A DNA stretch of 48,095 nucleotides from a virus: positions 1 through 48,095 of IMG/VR virus record IMGVR_UViG_3300015371_000063. One strand, given 5' to 3'. This document shows positions 8,176-18,747 of the stretch, piece by piece (position 1 is the first letter of the stretch; each line of letters opens with the position of its first letter). Below the pieces are notes generated by a model. The model worked only from the letters and a program-made list of their open reading frames with translations, was not told the origin of the DNA and ran no database searches. The translations under genes were made by a program, and so were the position numbers.

Positions 8176-9993
8176 CTATGCCGCCTTTTCCTGAAACCGT
8201 TGCGCCAACGCATCGTCGACCCGCTCGACCACGCTCGGCCAATCCAGCACCGTCGGTTGGCGGAAAATTCGCACGCTGTCATACCAGGGCGTTCGCTCGC
8301 CCTTGAGGCCCCATCGCCAATCGCAATCGAACGATATGAGCAACCACGTTTCCTTGCCGAGCGCGCCGGCCAGATGCCCGACCGAGGTGTCGACCGTGAT
8401 CACCAGGTCGAGCGAGGCGATGCAGGCCGCCGTGTCGGCGTAGCCGTCGAATTGGTTGACATGCGCGAGAGAAAAGAACCCGCCGTGCCGCGCCGTCAGC
8501 GGGCGAAACAGTTCGTGGTTGAGGTCGCGCGTGTAGGCCCGTTCCGAAAGGGGCGAGCCCTGCCAGCAAAACCCGATCTTGGGCAGATCGCGATCGCGCC
8601 AATTGTCGACCATCTTTTGATCGGCGCGCATGTACGGCTTGCAACGAATGTCGTCGTCGGTTGCGACGCCGAGCGCCCACGGCAACGACGGCAACGAGCA
8701 ATGCTTGGTGTAACGCGGCAGCGTGCGGCCGATGCGACACAGCCGGCCCGGCGGCACCAAGCCGGAAAGCTCGAAAAGCTCGTATTGATTCGCCGGCACC
8801 TCGACGAACGCGTTCGGCGCGCGGGCAAACGCTTGCGGTATGAAGCGGCCGAACATGATCGAGTCGCCAAAGCCTTGCTCGGCCCATAGCAACAGCGGCT
8901 CGTCGGTTTGCTCACCGGCCCATTTCACGCCGTCGTGCGGCCGATCGCCGAACGGCCGCGTGTTGGGTTGCAGATAGCGCGTCTCGTAGGCCGCCCATCC
9001 GGTGCGCCAATTGCCTTGCTGCAATTCGTAGAGCCCGCGAATCATGATCGACGGCAGATGCCCGCTATCCTTCGCAATGTTTTCGTCGAGCAACGCGCGG
9101 GCGCGCTCGGTGTCCTGCATCAGGTTGCAGAGGTGGGCGAGCAACGACCGCGACCATAGGTCGTCAGGCTCGCGCTCGACGATCTTTTCGTAGCGGACAA
9201 TCTCGCGCTGATAAATCTGCGGATCGAACCTCAGATCGGCGACCGGCTCCATGCCGGAAACGGCGATGCCGCTTTCGTTGTGCGCGCCGAGCATGTTGAG
9301 CGACACCACCTCGCCGAACACGTTCTTTTTGTGCCCGGCGAAATTTTGCGGATTCCAAAGCATCGGCCGGTGCCAATACAGCCGGTAGCCGAGGTCGGTG
9401 ATGGCGGCGATCAGCGCCCGGCTTTTGTCCTCGCGGTCGTTTTCGACATAGAGGATCGGCTGAAACCGCTCGATGGTTTGCCGCGCGCCCTCGATCACCT
9501 CAAGCTCGTGGCCCTCGGCGTCGATCTTGAGCATGGTGAGCCGATCGAGCTTGAGCCCGTCGATAGGCTGACAGGTCACGTCGAGCGAGCCACCACCGAC
9601 CTCGACCGCGCCGAAATTGCGATGGCCAAGCTCATCCAGCTTCGGAATTTTCATCAAGCTGTAATGATTGCTCGCCGCCGCCTCGATCACCTCGACCACG
9701 CCAGCAAGATCGTTGGCCGCGACGTTGGCACGCAACAACGCGGCGTTGAGCGGTTGCGGCTCGAACGCGATCAACTTGCCGCCCGGCGCGATCATCTGCG
9801 CCATCGGGATCGTCAGGCTGCCGATGTTGGCCCCGACCTCGACGACGACATTGCCGGGACACAGCATCTTGCGCATGGCGAGCAATTCGCACTCGCCATA
9901 TTCGCCATAGAGCAACAGCGAGCGCCCGACATAGGCGTCATCGGGAAAGAACGAAAACCGGCCGTGTCGGCAGGGCTTGGTGACCGATTGCAT
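8176..9993 (-). CDS. FkbM methyltransferase - TPR - glycosyltransferase fusion
   Basis: A 605-residue three-part enzyme. Residues 1-230 are an FkbM-type SAM methyltransferase: VEVGANIG at 51-58 binds SAM, followed by AFEPQPLN and the family motif KIDAEGHE at 156-163. Residues about 270-345 look like tetratricopeptide repeats (LARLCNLMQD/AKDSGHLPSIMIRGLYELQQ type helices). The C-terminal part (about 360-605) carries VDTSVGHLAGALGKETWLL at 534, the nucleotide-sugar-binding signature of TPR-linked GT9-like glycosyltransferases. It should add and O-methylate a sugar. The target is probably a virion protein encoded next to it (inference). Such a fusion between structural genes is unusual. Confidence 0.85.
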   Translation of the reverse strand: MQSVTKPCRHGRFSFFPDDAYVGRSLLLYGEYGECELLAMRKMLCPGNVVVEVGANIGSLTIPMAQMIAPGGKLIAFEPQPLNAALLRANVAANDLAGVVEVIEAAASNHYSLMKIPKLDELGHRNFGAVEVGGGSLDVTCQPIDGLKLDRLTMLKIDAEGHELEVIEGARQTIERFQPILYVENDREDKSRALIAAITDLGYRLYWHRPMLWNPQNFAGHKKNVFGEVVSLNMLGAHNESGIAVSGMEPVADLRFDPQIYQREIVRYEKIVEREPDDLWSRSLLAHLCNLMQDTERARALLDENIAKDSGHLPSIMIRGLYELQQGNWRTGWAAYETRYLQPNTRPFGDRPHDGVKWAGEQTDEPLLLWAEQGFGDSIMFGRFIPQAFARAPNAFVEVPANQYELFELSGLVPPGRLCRIGRTLPRYTKHCSLPSLPWALGVATDDDIRCKPYMRADQKMVDNWRDRDLPKIGFCWQGSPLSERAYTRDLNHELFRPLTARHGGFFSLAHVNQFDGYADTAACIASLDLVITVDTSVGHLAGALGKETWLLISFDCDWRWGLKGERTPWYDSVRIFRQPTVLDWPSVVERVDDALAQRFQEKAA

Positions 9994-11013: not shown

Positions 11014-11814
11014 TTAAGCCCGATACCCCGGCGCGCCGGTTTCGCCGCGATCGCCGCGCTGCCCCTGCGGGCCGCGCTCGCCGGGCTTGCCGTCCTTGCC
11101 GTCACGACCGCGCTTGATTGCGAGCCGCCAATCGCCGTCGATCGCTTCCGGCTTCTTGGCGGTGTCGGCCTGCGCAATGAAAACCGATCCGCCGTGCGAA
11201 ACGCTGTCGCCCTTTCGATATTCGCCGTCGCGCCACACCCCGCGATCGAGCGGGATCGCCGTTTTAATTTCGCGAATGACACCGCCGATTTCGATCACGA
11301 TGGTGCGGCCGTCGTCGGGCGTCGTGCATTTCATCGCCTTGAACTTTTCGTCGATGTAGCCGCGCACCTCGGCCGCGATCAGCGCCTCGATGACGCCGAG
11401 GTCCGACGCATCGCGGCCGTCGCGGCCCGGCTCGCCGCGCTCGCCCGGTGGGCCTTGTGGCCCGCGCTCGCCATCCTTGCCCGGCGGAATTCGCGCCACC
11501 GCCTCGGCGAGCTTGTCGTTGGCCGCGTCGATCTTGACCGCGACCTCGGCGATGATCTTTTCGGTGTCGGCGTCTTTGCCATCGAGGCCCGGCGCGCCGT
11601 CCTTTCCATCGAGGCCCGGCGCGCCGTCCTTGCCGTCGCGACCCGGTGCGCCGTCTTTGCCGGGCGGGCCGGGATCACCGGTCGCGCCCTTGATTGGCTC
11701 GCGCCCTTCAACGGCATCGAGCCGTTGCGCGAGCGGGGAAAACAATTTGTTGATGCGATCGGAGATCGCCGGGCCGATGCCCTCAATGATCGCTTGAATC
11801 TCTTTTGGGGTCAT
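11014..11814 (-). CDS. Collagen-like virion protein
   Basis: A 266-residue protein with an N-terminal helix (about 1-35), three Gly-X-Y tracts (about 43-80, 112-135 and 236-263; e.g. GKDGAPGLDGKDGAPGLDG), a helical spacer between the first two, and a small beta domain at 165-232 (RKGDSVSHGGSVFIAQADTA) resembling chitin-binding type 5/12-like modules. Phage collagen-like proteins trimerise as fibres or head decorations. Its position between portal and connector points to a head- or neck-associated fibre. The DNA of the collagen tracts contains short direct repeats. Confidence 0.75.
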   Translation of the reverse strand: MTPKEIQAIIEGIGPAISDRINKLFSPLAQRLDAVEGREPIKGATGDPGPPGKDGAPGRDGKDGAPGLDGKDGAPGLDGKDADTEKIIAEVAVKIDAANDKLAEAVARIPPGKDGERGPQGPPGERGEPGRDGRDASDLGVIEALIAAEVRGYIDEKFKAMKCTTPDDGRTIVIEIGGVIREIKTAIPLDRGVWRDGEYRKGDSVSHGGSVFIAQADTAKKPEAIDGDWRLAIKRGRDGKDGKPGERGPQGQRGDRGETGAPGYRA

Positions 11815-11823
11815 GGGTGGCCC

Positions 11824-11997
11824 TCAAGCGCCGCCATCGGTCTTTGCCGCGTCGCCGGTCAGGTAAACAATGCCGCCTTGGGCATCGGTAAAAATGACCT
11901 TGATCAACGTCGCCTTGTCTTTCGCAACAGGTTGATGCTCGTCGTTGATGTAAACGACCTCGGCCGGCCTTCCTTGCACGGTCGCGGTGTCGATCAT
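11824..11997 (-). CDS. Small hypothetical protein after portal
   Basis: A 57-residue protein, MIDTATVQGRPAEVVYI..., apparently all beta, with an Asp/Lys-rich middle. It starts by ATGA overlap with the portal-fusion stop (11994-11996) and ends 9 bp before the collagen-like gene. Similar short beta proteins often follow portal genes in alphaproteobacterial phages, but I do not recognise a family. A TTG-initiated form from 12009 is possible. Confidence 0.55.
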   Translation of the reverse strand: MIDTATVQGRPAEVVYINDEHQPVAKDKATLIKVIFTDAQGGIVYLTGDAAKTDGGA

Positions 11998-14636
11998 TTC
12001 ATTTTCCAAACCTTATCGACCGCGCCGTAAAGATTGCGCCATAGCTTTGCGTTCTTTTCGATTTGCGCTTTCGATGGCTTTGGCGGCGTCTCGCTTCCGC
12101 TCAATCGCTCGCGATAGCTGATCACCCGCTCGCCCATGTGATCGGGGAATTCTTTGGTCGTGTATTTGACGCGGGCCATTTCGGCGAGCGTTTCGTGCAT
12201 CGCGCTTTTAGCGTCGACGCCATGCTTGCCGCGATCGATCCAGCGATTCCACCATTCATAGCTGTAGTCCGATACGCCATCCGATGTTGCAAACGCCATG
12301 GTGCCGTGCGAATGCAGCGCCTCGTGCATGACCGTATAAGCCGGATATTTGTCGGCGTAAGCCGGTTTCAAACTGCCGTCGGCTCGCATTACGTCATCGG
12401 TCTTGCCGGGTTCGGCCATGATCGCGTTGAAATCCGTGCGATAGCGGTTAAGCGCGGTTTCGTATTTTATATGTTCGATTTCATGGGCGATCACGCCGTC
12501 GACGTTGCCGAAATTGACGTTGTTGGCAAAGATCGTAATGACCTTTTCGTCCTTGCCAATTTTGTCGGTCCTTGCCAGCCCGGCCGCTGAGCGCATGAGG
12601 CCGTTAAGCTCAAACGTTTGCTTGCCGTCGACGATTTCGATCATCGTCGGATCGAAATCCAAATCCTTAGCCACCTCGTTGACAACCTTTTGCACGTTTT
12701 CGTGCGACATGCCTTGCGGATCGCCCGACGGCTCGCTGATCGTGCCGCCGCCGGTGTCGGTCCAACGACCATCGTCGTCGCGCGGCTGATTAGGGTCGAA
12801 TTTCCGCCCCTTTGCCGCGTCGCCGAATTTTTGATGGTCGATCACCACCAACGCCGGGAAAGTTTTCTTTTTCAAGATTTGCAACGCATCAAAACGGTGC
12901 GCGCCTTCGAGAATATACGGGCCGGCGGCGCGGTTGTGTTCCTCGATGACTACGATGAGCGGTTTGATATGGCCGCTTTGTTCAATGGCCTCGGCAAGCG
13001 CGTTAGTGCGGCGATCGCGGGTCGGATTTCCTGCGGCTGAAAATGCCGAAAATGGGATTTCGCGAATTCCCTCTTGCACGGTGTAGTCGTCAAGGCTTGC
13101 GCCGATCGAGGCGGAGTTTGGAACGTCGTCATCGACGATCAGGCCGGACACTTTTTCGCCGGCAATGGGGAAATCGGCACCGGTATCCGTCCATCTGCCG
13201 TCATCGTCGCGAGGTTGGTTTGGGTCGTATCGCAAAAAAGGGCGGGCAAAGGACTCCGATCCATCACGCTCGAAAAACGCCTTCATCGCCCAACCCGCGA
13301 GCGTTTGGGTGGCCGCCAGGTTGTCCGGCGAATTGTCGTTGGCGGTTTGATCCTGCGGCTGCGGCGCGGGCTTTGGCGCGGTGCCGAACGGATCGGCCTG
13401 CGCGTCGCGCCTTGCAAGAGCCTCAAGCGAAAAGTTTTGTTGTTGAGAGAGCACCGCCTTGCCGCCCGGCGTCGGCGGATAATTCAATTTCTTGCGCGCC
13501 TCGTCGGCCGACAGAATCCCCTTGACCGCGTCGCCGAGCGATTTGATCTGCGTCGCCGAATCCATCCGCAACAGGTCGTCGAGGTTGAACCGCGTGCCGT
13601 AAACCTTGCCCGGCACGGCGAGCAATCCGAGGCCGACGTTGAGGCATTGCTCGATCGACTCGATGTGGATTTGCAGGCATTGCGAATAGTATTGCTGATT
13701 GAGCGCCTCGACGTTGTTGTAAGCTGGCGCGGTGCCGGCGTTGATCATGTAGGCCGGCACGCCGTAAACGCCGGCGATGATGCTGTCGGTCCATTTCAAT
13801 TGATTGATCACGTCGGACTCGACCGCGTTGGTGCTGATCGGCTGGAACGTGAGCCCGTCGCCCAACACGGCGACTTGGCCCGGCCCTCGGGTTTTCCATC
13901 GCTCCCGCAATTGCTCGGCCTTGGCGTCGTCGATGATGTGCGGCGAGGTCAAAACGCCGGTCGGCTGCGCGCCGTTTAGGAATAGCTGCGCGGTGCTTCT
14001 TTGAATGCCGGCGGCGAGCAACGAATTGATGCCGGCGGCGTACAACGGCGGCAGGCCGCAAAGCGGATGGTAGAGCGTATTCCATCGATCGTGGATGATT
14101 TCGGACGCCGGCACCGCCGGCATGTCCTCGGGGATGCCGGATAGGTCGTCGCGATAAAGCTGATAGTAAACCGAGCCGTCCGGCGCCACGAGCGGCCGCG
14201 TGCGCGTGGGATCGAGCACATAAAGCTCGGTCACGACGTTGCGCTGATCGCGCGCCTTGAGCACGTAGGTGTTGCCGCGCGCAAGCTTGCTTTCCATCCA
14301 ACTCTGAATGAACTGGATTCTGTTTTGGTAGCCGTTCGGCGCCTCAAGCACCGGCGAAAATGCCGGCGAATAGGTCGGCGTCCAAATGTCGTTTTCGTCT
14401 TGCTCGACGAGGTTCAACCGCATTTTTGCGATGTCACCGGAAATGAGCGAGATGCAACGAAACTGCGCCCAATAGGACAACGAATCTTCGAGCGTCACCT
14501 CGATGTTGCGCTGCCACGCGCCGGTGAACGGCTCGCGCACCACCGGCCACCAACCGCCGCGCGATGACGGCGGCGACAGCGTCGGCGTCGGCCGCAGCGC
14601 CTTGGCGCGCGTGATTTCGAGGCCGAACAAGCGCAC
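11994..14636 (-). CDS. Portal protein fused to ParB-like and metallopeptidase-like domains
   Basis: An 880-residue protein, about twice the size of an HK97-type portal. Residues about 30-400 are the portal (SLSYWAQFRCISLISGDIA, WKTRGPGQVAVLGDGLTFQP, YGVPAYMIN, LLRMDSATQ). A linker DPNQPRDDDGRWTDTG at 471-486 leads to a ParB/sulfiredoxin-like domain (about 522-600) with EGAHRFDAL. A second identical linker at 614-629 leads to a domain with HEIEH at 718-722, a zincin-type metal site, and further His/Glu motifs (MHEALHSH, MHETLAEM). Such linkers are known at joints between phage head proteins and enzymatic cargo. I infer the domains are carried in the virion. The start at 14636 follows a 6-bp gap. 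Confidence 0.85.
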   Translation of the reverse strand: MRLFGLEITRAKALRPTPTLSPPSSRGGWWPVVREPFTGAWQRNIEVTLEDSLSYWAQFRCISLISGDIAKMRLNLVEQDENDIWTPTYSPAFSPVLEAPNGYQNRIQFIQSWMESKLARGNTYVLKARDQRNVVTELYVLDPTRTRPLVAPDGSVYYQLYRDDLSGIPEDMPAVPASEIIHDRWNTLYHPLCGLPPLYAAGINSLLAAGIQRSTAQLFLNGAQPTGVLTSPHIIDDAKAEQLRERWKTRGPGQVAVLGDGLTFQPISTNAVESDVINQLKWTDSIIAGVYGVPAYMINAGTAPAYNNVEALNQQYYSQCLQIHIESIEQCLNVGLGLLAVPGKVYGTRFNLDDLLRMDSATQIKSLGDAVKGILSADEARKKLNYPPTPGGKAVLSQQQNFSLEALARRDAQADPFGTAPKPAPQPQDQTANDNSPDNLAATQTLAGWAMKAFFERDGSESFARPFLRYDPNQPRDDDGRWTDTGADFPIAGEKVSGLIVDDDVPNSASIGASLDDYTVQEGIREIPFSAFSAAGNPTRDRRTNALAEAIEQSGHIKPLIVVIEEHNRAAGPYILEGAHRFDALQILKKKTFPALVVIDHQKFGDAAKGRKFDPNQPRDDDGRWTDTGGGTISEPSGDPQGMSHENVQKVVNEVAKDLDFDPTMIEIVDGKQTFELNGLMRSAAGLARTDKIGKDEKVITIFANNVNFGNVDGVIAHEIEHIKYETALNRYRTDFNAIMAEPGKTDDVMRADGSLKPAYADKYPAYTVMHEALHSHGTMAFATSDGVSDYSYEWWNRWIDRGKHGVDAKSAMHETLAEMARVKYTTKEFPDHMGERVISYRERLSGSETPPKPSKAQIEKNAKLWRNLYGAVDKVWKMK
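12750..12797 (-). repeat. Second DPNQPRDDDGRWTDTG linker copy
   Basis: Encodes residues 614-629 of the portal fusion, identical in protein to the first copy at 13179-13226. The DNA copies differ at several third codon positions, so the amino acids are kept by selection or the duplication is old. It separates the ParB-like from the metallopeptidase-like domain. Confidence 0.85.
13179..13226 (-). repeat. First DPNQPRDDDGRWTDTG linker copy
   Basis: Encodes residues 471-486 of the portal fusion and marks the joint between the portal body and the ParB-like domain. Together with the second copy it frames that domain as an exchangeable module. Confidence 0.85.
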
Positions 14637-14929: not shown

Positions 14930-17002
14930 TTATCGAGGTTGCGGCTGCCGAGTGGCGGCTTCAAGCTGCGCCCGCTGCGCCTCTTGCTGCACCCGTCGCG
15001 TGGTTTCTTCTTCGTCCTTCAGCCGTTGCGTTATTGCCGCCTCGTCGAGCGTCGGCGCGATGGTGACACCGGAAAGATATTGCACCGAGCCGGTGCGCGC
15101 CTTGACCCACGTGATGAAACGCTCGGCCCTGATGCCGACCATGTTCGCCTGCCACAGCGAAACCATGATGGTTGTCGCGGTGGCCGGCGAGTCCGGTGCG
15201 CTGTCCATCTGCAACGACGCCTCGGTCGAAACCGAGAAGTCGACGCCGCCGTCATCGGCCAGCAAGATTTCCGGCGCGTTGATCGCGATGACGAGCCCGG
15301 TGGGCACGCTTTGCGAGGCGACCACCGGAATGCCTTCCAGCGTGCCGCCCTCCTTGCTCATGCCGGGGAAATCCTGCATGCCGAATGCGTTGCGGCTCAT
15401 GCCGATGCCAAGCGCAAGCGACGAACGCATGACCAGCACCAAGCCGTCGGTCGATTGGTTCGCCGTCGCATAGGTGGCGAGCAACGTGTAGAGGTCGGTG
15501 CGCAACGCTTCCGGCGTCGTGCCGGTCGATGGAATCGCCGACACCCCGTTGGTCACCGATGCCGGCGACACGCCGGTCACCGCCGCGATCGCCGGGTCGA
15601 GGAACGTGGTGTCGACCAGCTTGGTGATGGCCGCAACCAGCGAGTTGCGGATCAGCGTTTCCGCCGACGGCGATGAGAATTTCATCAATTCGACCGTGAT
15701 CGGAACGATGCCCGCGAGCTTGTGGAAGGCGAGCGACACGCTGTCGAACGCCATCGGACTGACCGGCTTGGGCTTGCCCTCGCCGACCCACGCCGCCACC
15801 GCGCCGAGTGTTTCGCGCGGCACCTTGATATTGAACGGCACCCGAGTGAGTCCAGGGATGCGGTTGACCACCGATGCCGCATAAAGCAATTCGATGAATT
15901 CGTTGGTGAGGTTTTGCGCCACCACCAACGGCCCGGCCCACGTCGCGTCGGTCGTGGTGCCGGCCGCCACCGCAGCGCGTTCGATAACGTCCATCGGAAT
16001 CTTGAGCACCGACTCGATGTCGTCGCCCCATCCCTTCGAGCGCGCGATTTCGGCCGGATGAACGTGGTGCTCCTTGGCGAGATAGCGAGCGCCAAACAGC
16101 CGGATATAGCCGACGCCCTTCGGCAGCGCTGGCCGCACGGCGATGACCGGCGAGCCCCGCGATTCCGATGCGGCGCGTTGCGTTGTGCCTTGCACGCCGC
16201 GCGCCTGTTCCATGTTGCGCTTTTCCGAGGCGCGCAACCGCACCAGATGCTCGTCGATTTCCTTCACCTCGATGTCGAGGCCGTCGTAGGTTTCCTTCTG
16301 GGCGCTGTCGAGCGTGATGCCCTTGTCGGAAACCTCGTTCATCAGCGCGTCCATTTCCGCCACCTTGGCGGCGCGCGTGTTCTCAAATGCCGAAATCTGT
16401 TCGGCGAAAGTTTGCTTTGCCATAGCTCGGCGGCCCTCCAGGGCCTTGATCACTGTCGTGGTTGATCGTTTTGCCGAGTCGCCGGCGGGGTTTTGCTCGA
16501 CGCTGCGTTGCGTTTTGCCGGTCGCGGCCAGCAATGCAGCGTCGATCGATTTCAATTGCGTGATGACGGCCTCCGGCTGCGCCGGGATCGACACCAAGGA
16601 AAGCTCGAGCCATTCCCATTTTTTGAAACGGAAACCGTTTTCGATGACCTCGATGCCGTCCTCGATGGCGCGAAAGCCGATCGAGACGAACTGCCGAAGC
16701 CCATGCTTGACGAAATGCCAAGCCTTGTCGGTCAACCGCTTGGCGTCGCCGTCCTCGTCGATGCGCGTGATCTTGGCGCGGAACGGAATCCCGCTCTTGT
16801 TCGGCTTGGCAAATTCGACGTGGCCGACTTGGTCGCGGCTCGAATGATCGAGTAGGAGCGGCATCGGCAATTTGAATTGCGCGCCCAACGGCTCGACCAC
16901 GTCGCCAACGCGATCCGGCGTCGGCGTCGAGGCGATGCCTTCGAACGTGCGCGTGTGCTCGGTGATTTCCTTGATTTCCAAAATGGCAAAGGCGCGGTTC
17001 AT
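14930..17002 (-). CDS. Prohead protease - major capsid protein fusion (HK97 type)
   Basis: A 690-residue polyprotein. Residues 1-170 form an HK97-family U35-like prohead protease: RTFEGIASTPTPDRVGDVV, LLLDHSSRDQVG with the catalytic-type His, and LELSLVSIPAQPEA with the conserved Ser. Residues about 195-290 are coiled coil, equivalent to the delta/scaffold region. Residues about 300-670 are an HK97-fold capsid (VVAQNLTNEFIELL, FNIKVPRETLGAVAAWVGEG, VPITVELMKFSS, FPGMSKEGGTLEGIPVV). Protease, scaffold and capsid are usually separate or pairwise fused. The ATG at 17002 was chosen because it begins the protease domain (MNRAFAILEIKEI). The gene comes before the portal, the reverse of the usual order. 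Confidence 0.9.
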   Translation of the reverse strand: MNRAFAILEIKEITEHTRTFEGIASTPTPDRVGDVVEPLGAQFKLPMPLLLDHSSRDQVGHVEFAKPNKSGIPFRAKITRIDEDGDAKRLTDKAWHFVKHGLRQFVSIGFRAIEDGIEVIENGFRFKKWEWLELSLVSIPAQPEAVITQLKSIDAALLAATGKTQRSVEQNPAGDSAKRSTTTVIKALEGRRAMAKQTFAEQISAFENTRAAKVAEMDALMNEVSDKGITLDSAQKETYDGLDIEVKEIDEHLVRLRASEKRNMEQARGVQGTTQRAASESRGSPVIAVRPALPKGVGYIRLFGARYLAKEHHVHPAEIARSKGWGDDIESVLKIPMDVIERAAVAAGTTTDATWAGPLVVAQNLTNEFIELLYAASVVNRIPGLTRVPFNIKVPRETLGAVAAWVGEGKPKPVSPMAFDSVSLAFHKLAGIVPITVELMKFSSPSAETLIRNSLVAAITKLVDTTFLDPAIAAVTGVSPASVTNGVSAIPSTGTTPEALRTDLYTLLATYATANQSTDGLVLVMRSSLALGIGMSRNAFGMQDFPGMSKEGGTLEGIPVVASQSVPTGLVIAINAPEILLADDGGVDFSVSTEASLQMDSAPDSPATATTIMVSLWQANMVGIRAERFITWVKARTGSVQYLSGVTIAPTLDEAAITQRLKDEEETTRRVQQEAQRAQLEAATRQPQPR

Positions 17003-17043
17003 GGCGACCGCCTTTCGAATTGATGTTGTTGAGGCGAGAGAGG

Positions 17044-18747
17044 CTAGATCACGAAAATGTTGTGCTGGCGCCGCGCCGTCACCGGATTCCACGACATGAG
17101 GATCGCGGCGCAGAACGTGGCGATCAGCGGATCGATCTTTGCTCTACCGGCGGCTTGCTTGGTGATGATGTTGCCGTTGCCGCGCACCTCGACCTTGGCG
17201 TTGCCGACGACCCACCGCATCAGCGCGAGCCCGCCGTGGCTCAACGTGTCGTCGCTTAGCTTGCGCTCGATGCCCCAGATCGCCGGCGATAGCGCGGTGC
17301 CCTGCATCAGCCGCCGCAACATCGGGTCGGTGATCCGCCGCGCCACCAATTCCTCGATGATGGTGCCGACGTTGTTCGGATCAAAGCCGATGGCGTTCTT
17401 TTCGGGCAGCAAGCCGGCGTCGCGGATTTGCGCCACCACCTCGCCGAGCGCCTTGATGTCGTCGGGCACTTGGCAGAACGTCAACGATCCTTCCGCCTCA
17501 AACTCGAGCAAGGTTTGCGAAAGCTCTTTGTAACGATCGAGAATTTTGGGGTGCGCGTAAGCGTGATTCCAGATCAGCCAACGCCGGGTTTGTTTTTCGC
17601 GGCCGATCACGGCAAGCCCGAGCATGTCGTCGAGGCCGCCGCCGTCAATGCCGATGGTCGCAACCTCTGAGCGCTCGATGAGGTTTTCCAGCGTCAGCGC
17701 GTAGTCCGATCGGTCGGCCCAATAATCGGCGGCGCGCCATGCGTCGTCGGGCAACGCCGAGCCAACCTCGACGTTGAAATGCTGGCTGGCGATCAATTGC
17801 AGTTGCGTCGTGTCGTCGGTGCGCTCGGCCTTGGCCAATTCGTCGCGGAGGTAAGCCTCGTCGACCGAGCGGTGTAGGTTTGGATTGACGAGCGGCCAGG
17901 TTTTCGGATCGCGCCAACCGCCATCCTTGGCAACATCGAACGGCAATTCGTACAGCACCGGCAGGATCGGCAGGCTGATGACGCCGTCGCGCACCGCACG
18001 CGCGGTGTTTAGCTCGGCCTTGAACAACCCGACGGGCGGGTCTTTGCTTTGCGTGGTGATCTGGATCATGAACCCGTCGGGCCGCGACGCGAGCCCGCCA
18101 CGGATTTCGATGAACACCGCCTTGGCGTCGGCCTTCTGCGCGAACTCGTGCGTCTCGTCGACCAGAATGTAGCTTGCTTTTGAGCCGGTGATCACGTCGG
18201 CGTCGGCGGCCTTGATCTGCATCACCGCTTCGGTCATGCGGTGCTTGATCGTGCTGGTATGCGCCGACAGGTTGAAAAGCTTGTTGAGTTCGGCGTCGAG
18301 CCGGATGATGCCGGCGGCCTGGTTGAACGCGATCGAGGCGATCTTTTTGGTCGGCGCGATCAACAGCAATTCGGCGGCCGGCCTTCGATTGACGATCGCG
18401 GCGGTGACCATGATCGCGGCGGCAAGGCTCGACTTGCCGTTTTTCTTTGGGATCAGCACGAAAAATTCGCGGATCATGCGGCGCCGCGTTGCCGGATCGT
18501 AGGCGCCGAAAATCGCCGCCACCAATTCGAACACCCACGGCGCGCAAACCTCGCCGTTGGTCGGCGTGCCGATCACGTCGGGAATGCGCAACCGCTTGAA
18601 CACCCGCAACGCGCGCTCGACCTCGCGCTCGTTGAGCGGCAATTTCGGGATCAGCGAGCGTTGCTGCATGATCCGCGCTTGCCAATCGGGGCAGGCGGTC
18701 GACCACGGCGTTGTTAATTGGTCGGTGGTTTGAGGTCGTCGCCCCAT
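17044..18747 (-). CDS. terL: Terminase large subunit (TerL)
   Basis: A 567-residue packaging motor and nuclease. The ATPase has Walker A PKKNGKSS at about 100-107 and Walker B ILVDE at 194-198, followed by the coupling motif region (GFMIQITTQS). The nuclease half carries GIDGGGLDD near residue 370 and FDPNNVGTIIEELV further on, giving the acidic residues that bind metal. It resembles the Terminase_1 group common with HK97-type heads. Its start overlaps the end of the terS gene by 34 bp. The 41-bp gap to the capsid gene carries a good ribosome site only for the latter. Confidence 0.95.
   Translation of the reverse strand: MGRRPQTTDQLTTPWSTACPDWQARIMQQRSLIPKLPLNEREVERALRVFKRLRIPDVIGTPTNGEVCAPWVFELVAAIFGAYDPATRRRMIREFFVLIPKKNGKSSLAAAIMVTAAIVNRRPAAELLLIAPTKKIASIAFNQAAGIIRLDAELNKLFNLSAHTSTIKHRMTEAVMQIKAADADVITGSKASYILVDETHEFAQKADAKAVFIEIRGGLASRPDGFMIQITTQSKDPPVGLFKAELNTARAVRDGVISLPILPVLYELPFDVAKDGGWRDPKTWPLVNPNLHRSVDEAYLRDELAKAERTDDTTQLQLIASQHFNVEVGSALPDDAWRAADYWADRSDYALTLENLIERSEVATIGIDGGGLDDMLGLAVIGREKQTRRWLIWNHAYAHPKILDRYKELSQTLLEFEAEGSLTFCQVPDDIKALGEVVAQIRDAGLLPEKNAIGFDPNNVGTIIEELVARRITDPMLRRLMQGTALSPAIWGIERKLSDDTLSHGGLALMRWVVGNAKVEVRGNGNIITKQAAGRAKIDPLIATFCAAILMSWNPVTARRQHNIFVI

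Follow-up and report, generated by a model that had tools for sequence, protein, structure and literature searches.

Why should a phage portal protein end in two enzyme-like domains, each behind a copy of the same short peptide? The question is raised by a single uninterrupted 880-aa open reading frame (ORF; 11994–14636, minus strand, GTG start) in an IMG/VR virus record, whose 48,095 bases are the window analyzed here. The ORF comprises a portal and a C-terminal extension (Table 1), and it is the extension only, 11994–13226, that the original prediction covered, proposing ParB-like and metallopeptidase-like effectors joined to the portal by identical, reusable linkers.

The portal gene and its extension

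The N-terminal part of the ORF is, by sequence, a solidly assigned HK97-type portal. The match exceeds curated cut-offs for both PF04860 (E = 2.5e-70, 237.6 bits vs. a cut-off of 39.1) and TIGR01537 portal_HK97 (217.6 bits vs. 112.05), as predicted, and terminase, protease-capsid and connector genes adjoin it, the last being a gp6-like connector gene that also flanks the portal. We place the portal in the head module because the protease-capsid fusion adjoins it upstream. Past the portal ORF come just a 61-aa frame and, after it, a collagen-like gene, with no immunity-type gene seen directly downstream.

Two other genes of this region are of separate interest. The collagen-like gene directly after the portal in the head module (11014–11814, minus strand) encodes a 266-aa protein with Gly-X-Y repeats (PF01391). 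A 605-aa frame in the structural gene region (8176–9993, minus strand) has a start that, by eye, resembles an FkbM-type methyltransferase.

Two further contigs encode an identical 880-aa protein, one being identical over 7,347 bases and the other having 1 mismatch in 10,201 bases; these contigs may derive from related samples. An assembly chimera was rejected, as the fused frame is present on both. Nor is there any sign that the C-terminal half is an independently started protein: in a simple Shine-Dalgarno check of in-frame start codons within the extension, the sole internal start to pass was codon 879, two codons from the end.

Table 1. Parts of the portal ORF, its head-module neighbors, and N-terminal motifs of zincin-like homologues
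Feature	Position in window	Strand	Detail
HK97-type portal part, aa 1–470	13227–14636	-	PF04860 at aa 59–385 (13482–14462)
First motif copy, aa 471–486	13179–13226	-	DPNQPRDDDGRWTDTG
ParB/sulfiredoxin-fold domain, aa 487–613	12798–13178	-	EGAHRFDAL at aa 577 (12882–12908)
Second motif copy, aa 614–629	12750–12797	-	DPNQPRDDDGRWTDTG; same peptide, 11/16 codons different
Zincin-like domain, aa 630–880	11997–12749	-	HEIEH at aa 718 (12471–12485); HETLAEM at aa 814 (12177–12197)
Prohead serine protease (S78) fused to major capsid protein, upstream neighbor of portal	14930–17092	-	One 720-aa frame
Terminase large subunit, same module as portal	17044–18747	-	
N-terminal motif of zincin homologue L331			FDPSQPRDEHGRWTDGGG
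N-terminal motif of zincin homologue L332			WDESLHPRDEEGKFTSGGG
N-terminal motif of zincin homologue L333			WEESKHPRGQPGNAGQFASRGG
N-terminal motif of zincin homologue L334			HLPAGSPDGTGGQF, degenerate

Sequence comparison shows that the extension is foreign to this portal lineage and was grafted recently. A search with the whole protein found 80 loci, of which 2 are identical and 78 match in the portal part only, with best segments 48–60% identical. Portals of these 78 relatives end soon after the portal part (mostly at 445–485 aa, the longest among the frames read being 526 aa), and no copy of the motif turned up in any ORF of their loci. Homologous portals do not all carry an inert extension, which was the second alternative to the original prediction. 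The extension also differs from the portal part in G+C content (0.55–0.56 vs. 0.62) and GC3 (0.64–0.69 vs. 0.80); capsid and terminase genes have a composition close to that of the portal part. It is because 78 close relatives have no extension, and because G+C is 55% versus 62%, that we interpret the extension as a graft. A quick search gave a tree of 105 HK97-type portals, with some long branches away from this phage. In it, parsimony requires 12 changes of the motif-fused state (9 on well-supported branches alone), and the fusion in this phage is nested among 69 plain portals, the nearest being L004 (64% over 374 columns).

Two domains and their relatives

The call of a ParB/sulfiredoxin-type domain held up well. 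The AlphaFold model of aa 487–613 (pLDDT 89.3) has Noc, sulfiredoxin (Srx) and ParB as its best PDB matches (E about 7e-4, probability 1.00, moderate TM of 0.43–0.48), a family profile finds ParB chain 7o0n (E = 1.9e-8), and EGAHRFDAL, the nucleotide-pocket motif around a conserved R, is invariant in 9/9 aligned sequences. The modeled structure places the domain in the ParB/sulfiredoxin superfamily. Pfam ParB_N is borderline: this phage's domain falls below the cut-off, which is passed by L205 and L206 only. It is also the sole ParB-type Pfam family found (E up to 10), with no DdrB-ParB subfamily match for this domain or its relatives.

Relatives of the ParB-like domain (42–60% identity) occur on nine other phage contigs. 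In L205 and L206 they lie inside very large polyvalent proteins that also contain ART-PolyVal and LPD domains (LPD38 and LPD22 among relatives); they form small stand-alone proteins in L207 and L208, and are also found in L209, L211, L210 (where a HELGEH segment comes next), L204 and L337. The motif is absent from all eight relatives examined over their full length. The two giant polyvalent proteins are 2299 aa (L205, 626–7522) and at least 2755 aa (L206, 89–8353), each with several ART-PolyVal copies besides the ParB-like domain, and a GNAT-like segment follows the ParB-like domain in L206.

The metallopeptidase call stands as regards conserved residues, but no solved fold matched the domain. 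Through the motif-bearing ORF L187, which is the same protein as L331, we reached four divergent homologues (L331–L334; 57, 41, 36 and 27% identity), and HEIxHxK and HETLAE are invariant in 5/5 sequences, down to 25–27% identity. This conservation of HExxH plus a putative downstream ligand is that of a zincin. The domain model (pLDDT 84) has both HExxH and HETLAE on helices. The domain profile matches Ste24p at E = 7.7e-4, Pfam M13 similarity is weak, nothing curated lies above its cut-off, and Foldseek gave a best E of 0.4, with M32 carboxypeptidases among the top matches at low probability. We call aa 630–880 zincin-like, and regard proteolysis as a presumed activity, because no solved fold matches and similarity to Ste24p and M13 is weak.

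Zincin-like relatives were found neither among isolated phages nor among genome contigs. None of L331–L334 is a portal: each is a stand-alone ORF that has the zincin at its C-terminal end and a copy or variant of the motif near the N-terminus (Table 1), such that the zincin is C-terminal in all five architectures. What lies between motif and zincin varies: ParB in this phage and other, uncharacterized sequence in L331 and L332. Where the C-terminal peptidase stays the same while the domains before it change, as in P1 DdrB and further polyvalent proteins, Iyer et al. 2017 (PMC5512222) interpret the arrangement as one for autoprocessing. In L333 and L334 the zincin has no recognized partner domain, so an effector role fits equally well.

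The motif and its partners

As predicted, an identical linker occurs twice within one frame, with a different domain behind each copy. The two copies share 16/16 residues and 5/16 codons, a repeat well past what chance would give; because 11/16 codons differ, it is the peptide and not the DNA that is conserved, and a recent tandem duplication of the linker was rejected on the same ground. The motif occurs nowhere else in the window, the protease-capsid protein included.

Beyond this phage the motif is widespread. A QPRDxxGRWT codon pattern matched at least 120 viral stretches in IMG/VR, versus 1 for the reversed codon order, and the pattern of a sister form, HPRDxxGKFT, likewise matched at least 120 (both counts are lower bounds from nonrandom samples). 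A short-peptide tblastn against isolated phages returned 0 matches for the motif and 0 for a reversed control alike. The logo of the 113 distinct copies listed reads K[FY][DSN]P[DN]QPRD[ED]xGRWT[SD]GGG, and its borders are sharp, conservation being gone beyond about 10 residues on either side.

Motif partners are diverse both upstream and downstream. Among 80 distinct upstream stretches listed, portals of four Pfam families make up 36 (PF04860 19, PF06381 10, Portal_Mu 5 and PF05136 2) and MuF 4, while PHROGs add head maturation proteases. Among 116 downstream parts listed are ART (8), MuF (7), Zeta (5), TopoIB (4) and Tox-REase-5 (3), as well as PBECR, CDI toxin, colicin E5 (ColE5), RNase A, GNATs, RelA/SpoT, ParB_N and others. 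The predicted joint for exchangeable effectors is supported well beyond this phage, by many upstream head proteins, other portals among them, and many downstream domains in other phages. The view that cargo on a portal is unusual is true within this clade (0/78 relatives), but not more widely, given those 36/80 portals and published fusions. "Linker" also proved too narrow a word: the motif is a joint but more than that, since stand-alone cargo is tagged near its N-terminus. Of the viral ORFs listed, 35 are fusions to a portal, 35 bear the motif in their first 70 aa and 38 bear it internally; among matches listed in genomes a further 40 stand-alone ORFs have it within 70 aa of the N-terminus.

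Copies of the motif within one phage resemble each other more than copies from different phages (12.3 vs. 9.6 of 18 residues; 0/2000 permutations). In L332, for example, the portal, zincin and Zeta-toxin genes each have a near-identical motif. Tagged genes stand side by side in some phages, as these three do in L332 and a further three in L088 (kinase-like, ART, kinase-like). The excess persists among pairs with at least 5 silent differences (13.3 within vs. 10.5 between), and the H form repeats it. A peptide recognized by a partner specific to each phage would give such matching, and old duplication or gene conversion is an alternative that could contribute in part.

The motif also occurs in bacterial genomes. 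Rhizobiales chromosomes hold motif ORFs of about 206–221 aa with small partner ORFs directly after them, resembling toxin-immunity pairs (L263:2759–3849, L254:1720–2848, L228:5388–6478, L223:5091–6100 and L269:4896–5926). The partner ORFs are homologous between loci (29–64% in one group, 79% in another), and the few neighbors scanned (AraC regulator, acyltransferase) are not phage genes. The motif is not strictly virion-bound, because these motif-toxins with immunity-like partners lie outside recognizable prophages. A conserved family of about 210–236 aa (L219, L224, L226, L227, L239, L253, L264, L271 and L289, mostly Pseudonocardiales) has QPRDxxGRWTK at its start followed by a hydrophobic stretch; L219, the single member scanned, matched nothing in Pfam or PHROGs. 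On a Bacillota MAG contig (L255:373–1743), three consecutive ORFs of 144–165 aa have nearly the same starting motif in different codons; by eye, one has a SHEGRNRTIAF segment like the ParB/Srx pocket and another is ART-like.

A probable cargo cassette on the portal

Several known systems share features with this portal. Like polyvalent proteins, it is encoded among virion genes and combines at least two enzymatic conflict domains in a single chain, here ParB/Srx and a zincin-like domain. The closest comparison is P1 DdrB, a protein processed and packaged that likewise combines ParB/Srx with a C-terminal zincin-like metallopeptidase (MPTase) and is encoded among virion genes (PMC5512222). The pair differs here in being fused to the portal itself via the motif; moreover, this ParB domain matches ParB_N and no DdrB-ParB model in Pfam, and this zincin has HExxH plus a HETLAE helix and is above no curated family cut-off. 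MuF polymorphic toxins, as presented in the parts available of three papers (Jamet et al. 2017, PMC5576092; Zhang et al. 2012, PMC3482391; Bxa, PMC11699363), share an N-terminal head protein with an exchangeable C-terminal effector, location in the head module and proposed delivery with the virion; those parts do not mention the motif. In contrast, the carrier here is a portal, two domains are stacked and no immunity-type gene was seen directly downstream; PF04233 (MuF) is absent from the 880-aa protein, which is therefore not a MuF toxin. Portal-effector fusions have been published for PBECR, 2H, Nudix and ART and are likewise predicted to be packaged and injected, but the available text of PMC5512222 and PMC9503650 describes neither ParB/Srx and zincin on a portal nor a shared peptide joint. 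Set against these sources as far as they were available, MuF toxins, polyvalent proteins and portal-effector fusions are known, and the ParB/zincin cargo on a portal and the motif appear new. Of the two, the motif is the more surprising.

Conserved markers stand where exchangeable effectors begin in other delivery systems, such as VENN of CdiA and DPxGL of Rhs. In type VI secretion (T6SS), RIX is a conserved element that travels with cargo (PMC10435454). The motif is likewise a short conserved element marking or accompanying effectors, but it differs in sequence and delivery machine and, at about 17 residues, is much shorter than a domain such as RIX. Text searches for motif pieces found no description of it in the literature covered, and a report may exist elsewhere.

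The explanation that we favor, by a little, is that the portal bears virion cargo attached through a cargo motif under selection, and that the zincin may release the ParB-like effector. A foreign two-effector cassette, [motif-ParB/Srx]-[motif-zincin], would have been grafted at the portal's native C-terminus. Portal C-termini form the crown within the head (PMC12810830), and so each of twelve subunits is expected to bring its cassette into the particle, with up to twelve copies riding in the head, and we consider it likely that the extension is carried as cargo. We also lean toward the motif having a function of its own in cargo and not being just inert spacing: [FY][DSN]PxQPRD[ED]xGRWT followed by glycines would be a peptide-level element under selection that marks the boundary of virion cargo, and its most likely reader would be a partner encoded by the phage, such as a maturation peptidase, scaffold or docking site. 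The C-terminal zincin would then cut the chain at or near the motifs and free a ParB-like nuclease/NTPase-type effector, although we give its being the releasing peptidase, and not an injected effector, slightly less than even odds. The motif is not specifically the zincin's substrate, because most motif-bearing proteins have no zincin. Head-packaged P1 Dar proteins are ejected with the DNA (PMC12810830); a freed ParB-like effector may leave in this way, as proposed for P1 DdrB, and have nucleic acid or nucleotides as its target at an early stage of infection. A broader reading, which we offer tentatively, is that [FY]xPxQPRDxxGRWT-Gly and [FW]xExxHPRDxxGKFT-Gly are two forms of a single undescribed tag that tailed phages put on proteins or domains for virion loading, processing or ejection, with a matched version and a phage-encoded reader in each phage.

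Alternatively, the motif could be a mere boundary for cassette swapping, kept by recombination and purifying selection with no docking or cleavage, and ParB and zincin two independent injected effectors. The many different domains on both sides of the motif, the cassette stacked twice in this portal, the foreign composition of the extension, the repeated gain in the portal tree and the chromosomal toxin-immunity cassettes all fit such swapping. We nonetheless judge it unlikely, as 318/676 codons at identical residues (about half) differ between copies within a phage, which points to a conserved peptide and not a DNA crossover target, and as the motif near the N-terminus of stand-alone cargo has nothing there to swap onto. 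Less probable again is that the motif is a recognition or cleavage site for the phage's own head maturation protease, which would free all cargo in the prohead and leave the zincin to attack a host protein. Head maturation proteases are among the upstream partners, the closer match of copies within a phage fits a peptide evolving together with a reader that the phage encodes, and in P1 the prohead protease cuts the internal protein DarA (PMC12810830); however, the motif is not simply a capsid maturation site, because this phage's own protease-capsid protein has no copy. That the extension is inert baggage from read-through or accidental fusion is very improbable: close relatives do without it and the zincin matches no solved fold, but 880 codons are open in three contigs, catalytic-type residues are kept in both domains against homologues at 27–60% identity, and both domain types recur in head regions of other phages and in polyvalent proteins.

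On this sequence evidence, the motif may mark toxin- or effector-like cargo on head proteins of many unrelated phages, as a general and apparently undescribed tag or joint. Phages inject proteins besides DNA, but in only a few systems is it known what marks cargo for the head. With one short peptide recurring on portals, on MuF and head-protease proteins and on stand-alone cargo, injected effectors could be found from sequence alone, and the way in which cargo is loaded or processed could be put to a direct test. Many of the downstream domains have no recognized annotation and are a source of new toxins and counter-defense proteins. If the tag reading is true, virion-delivered effectors would become predictable directly from sequence.
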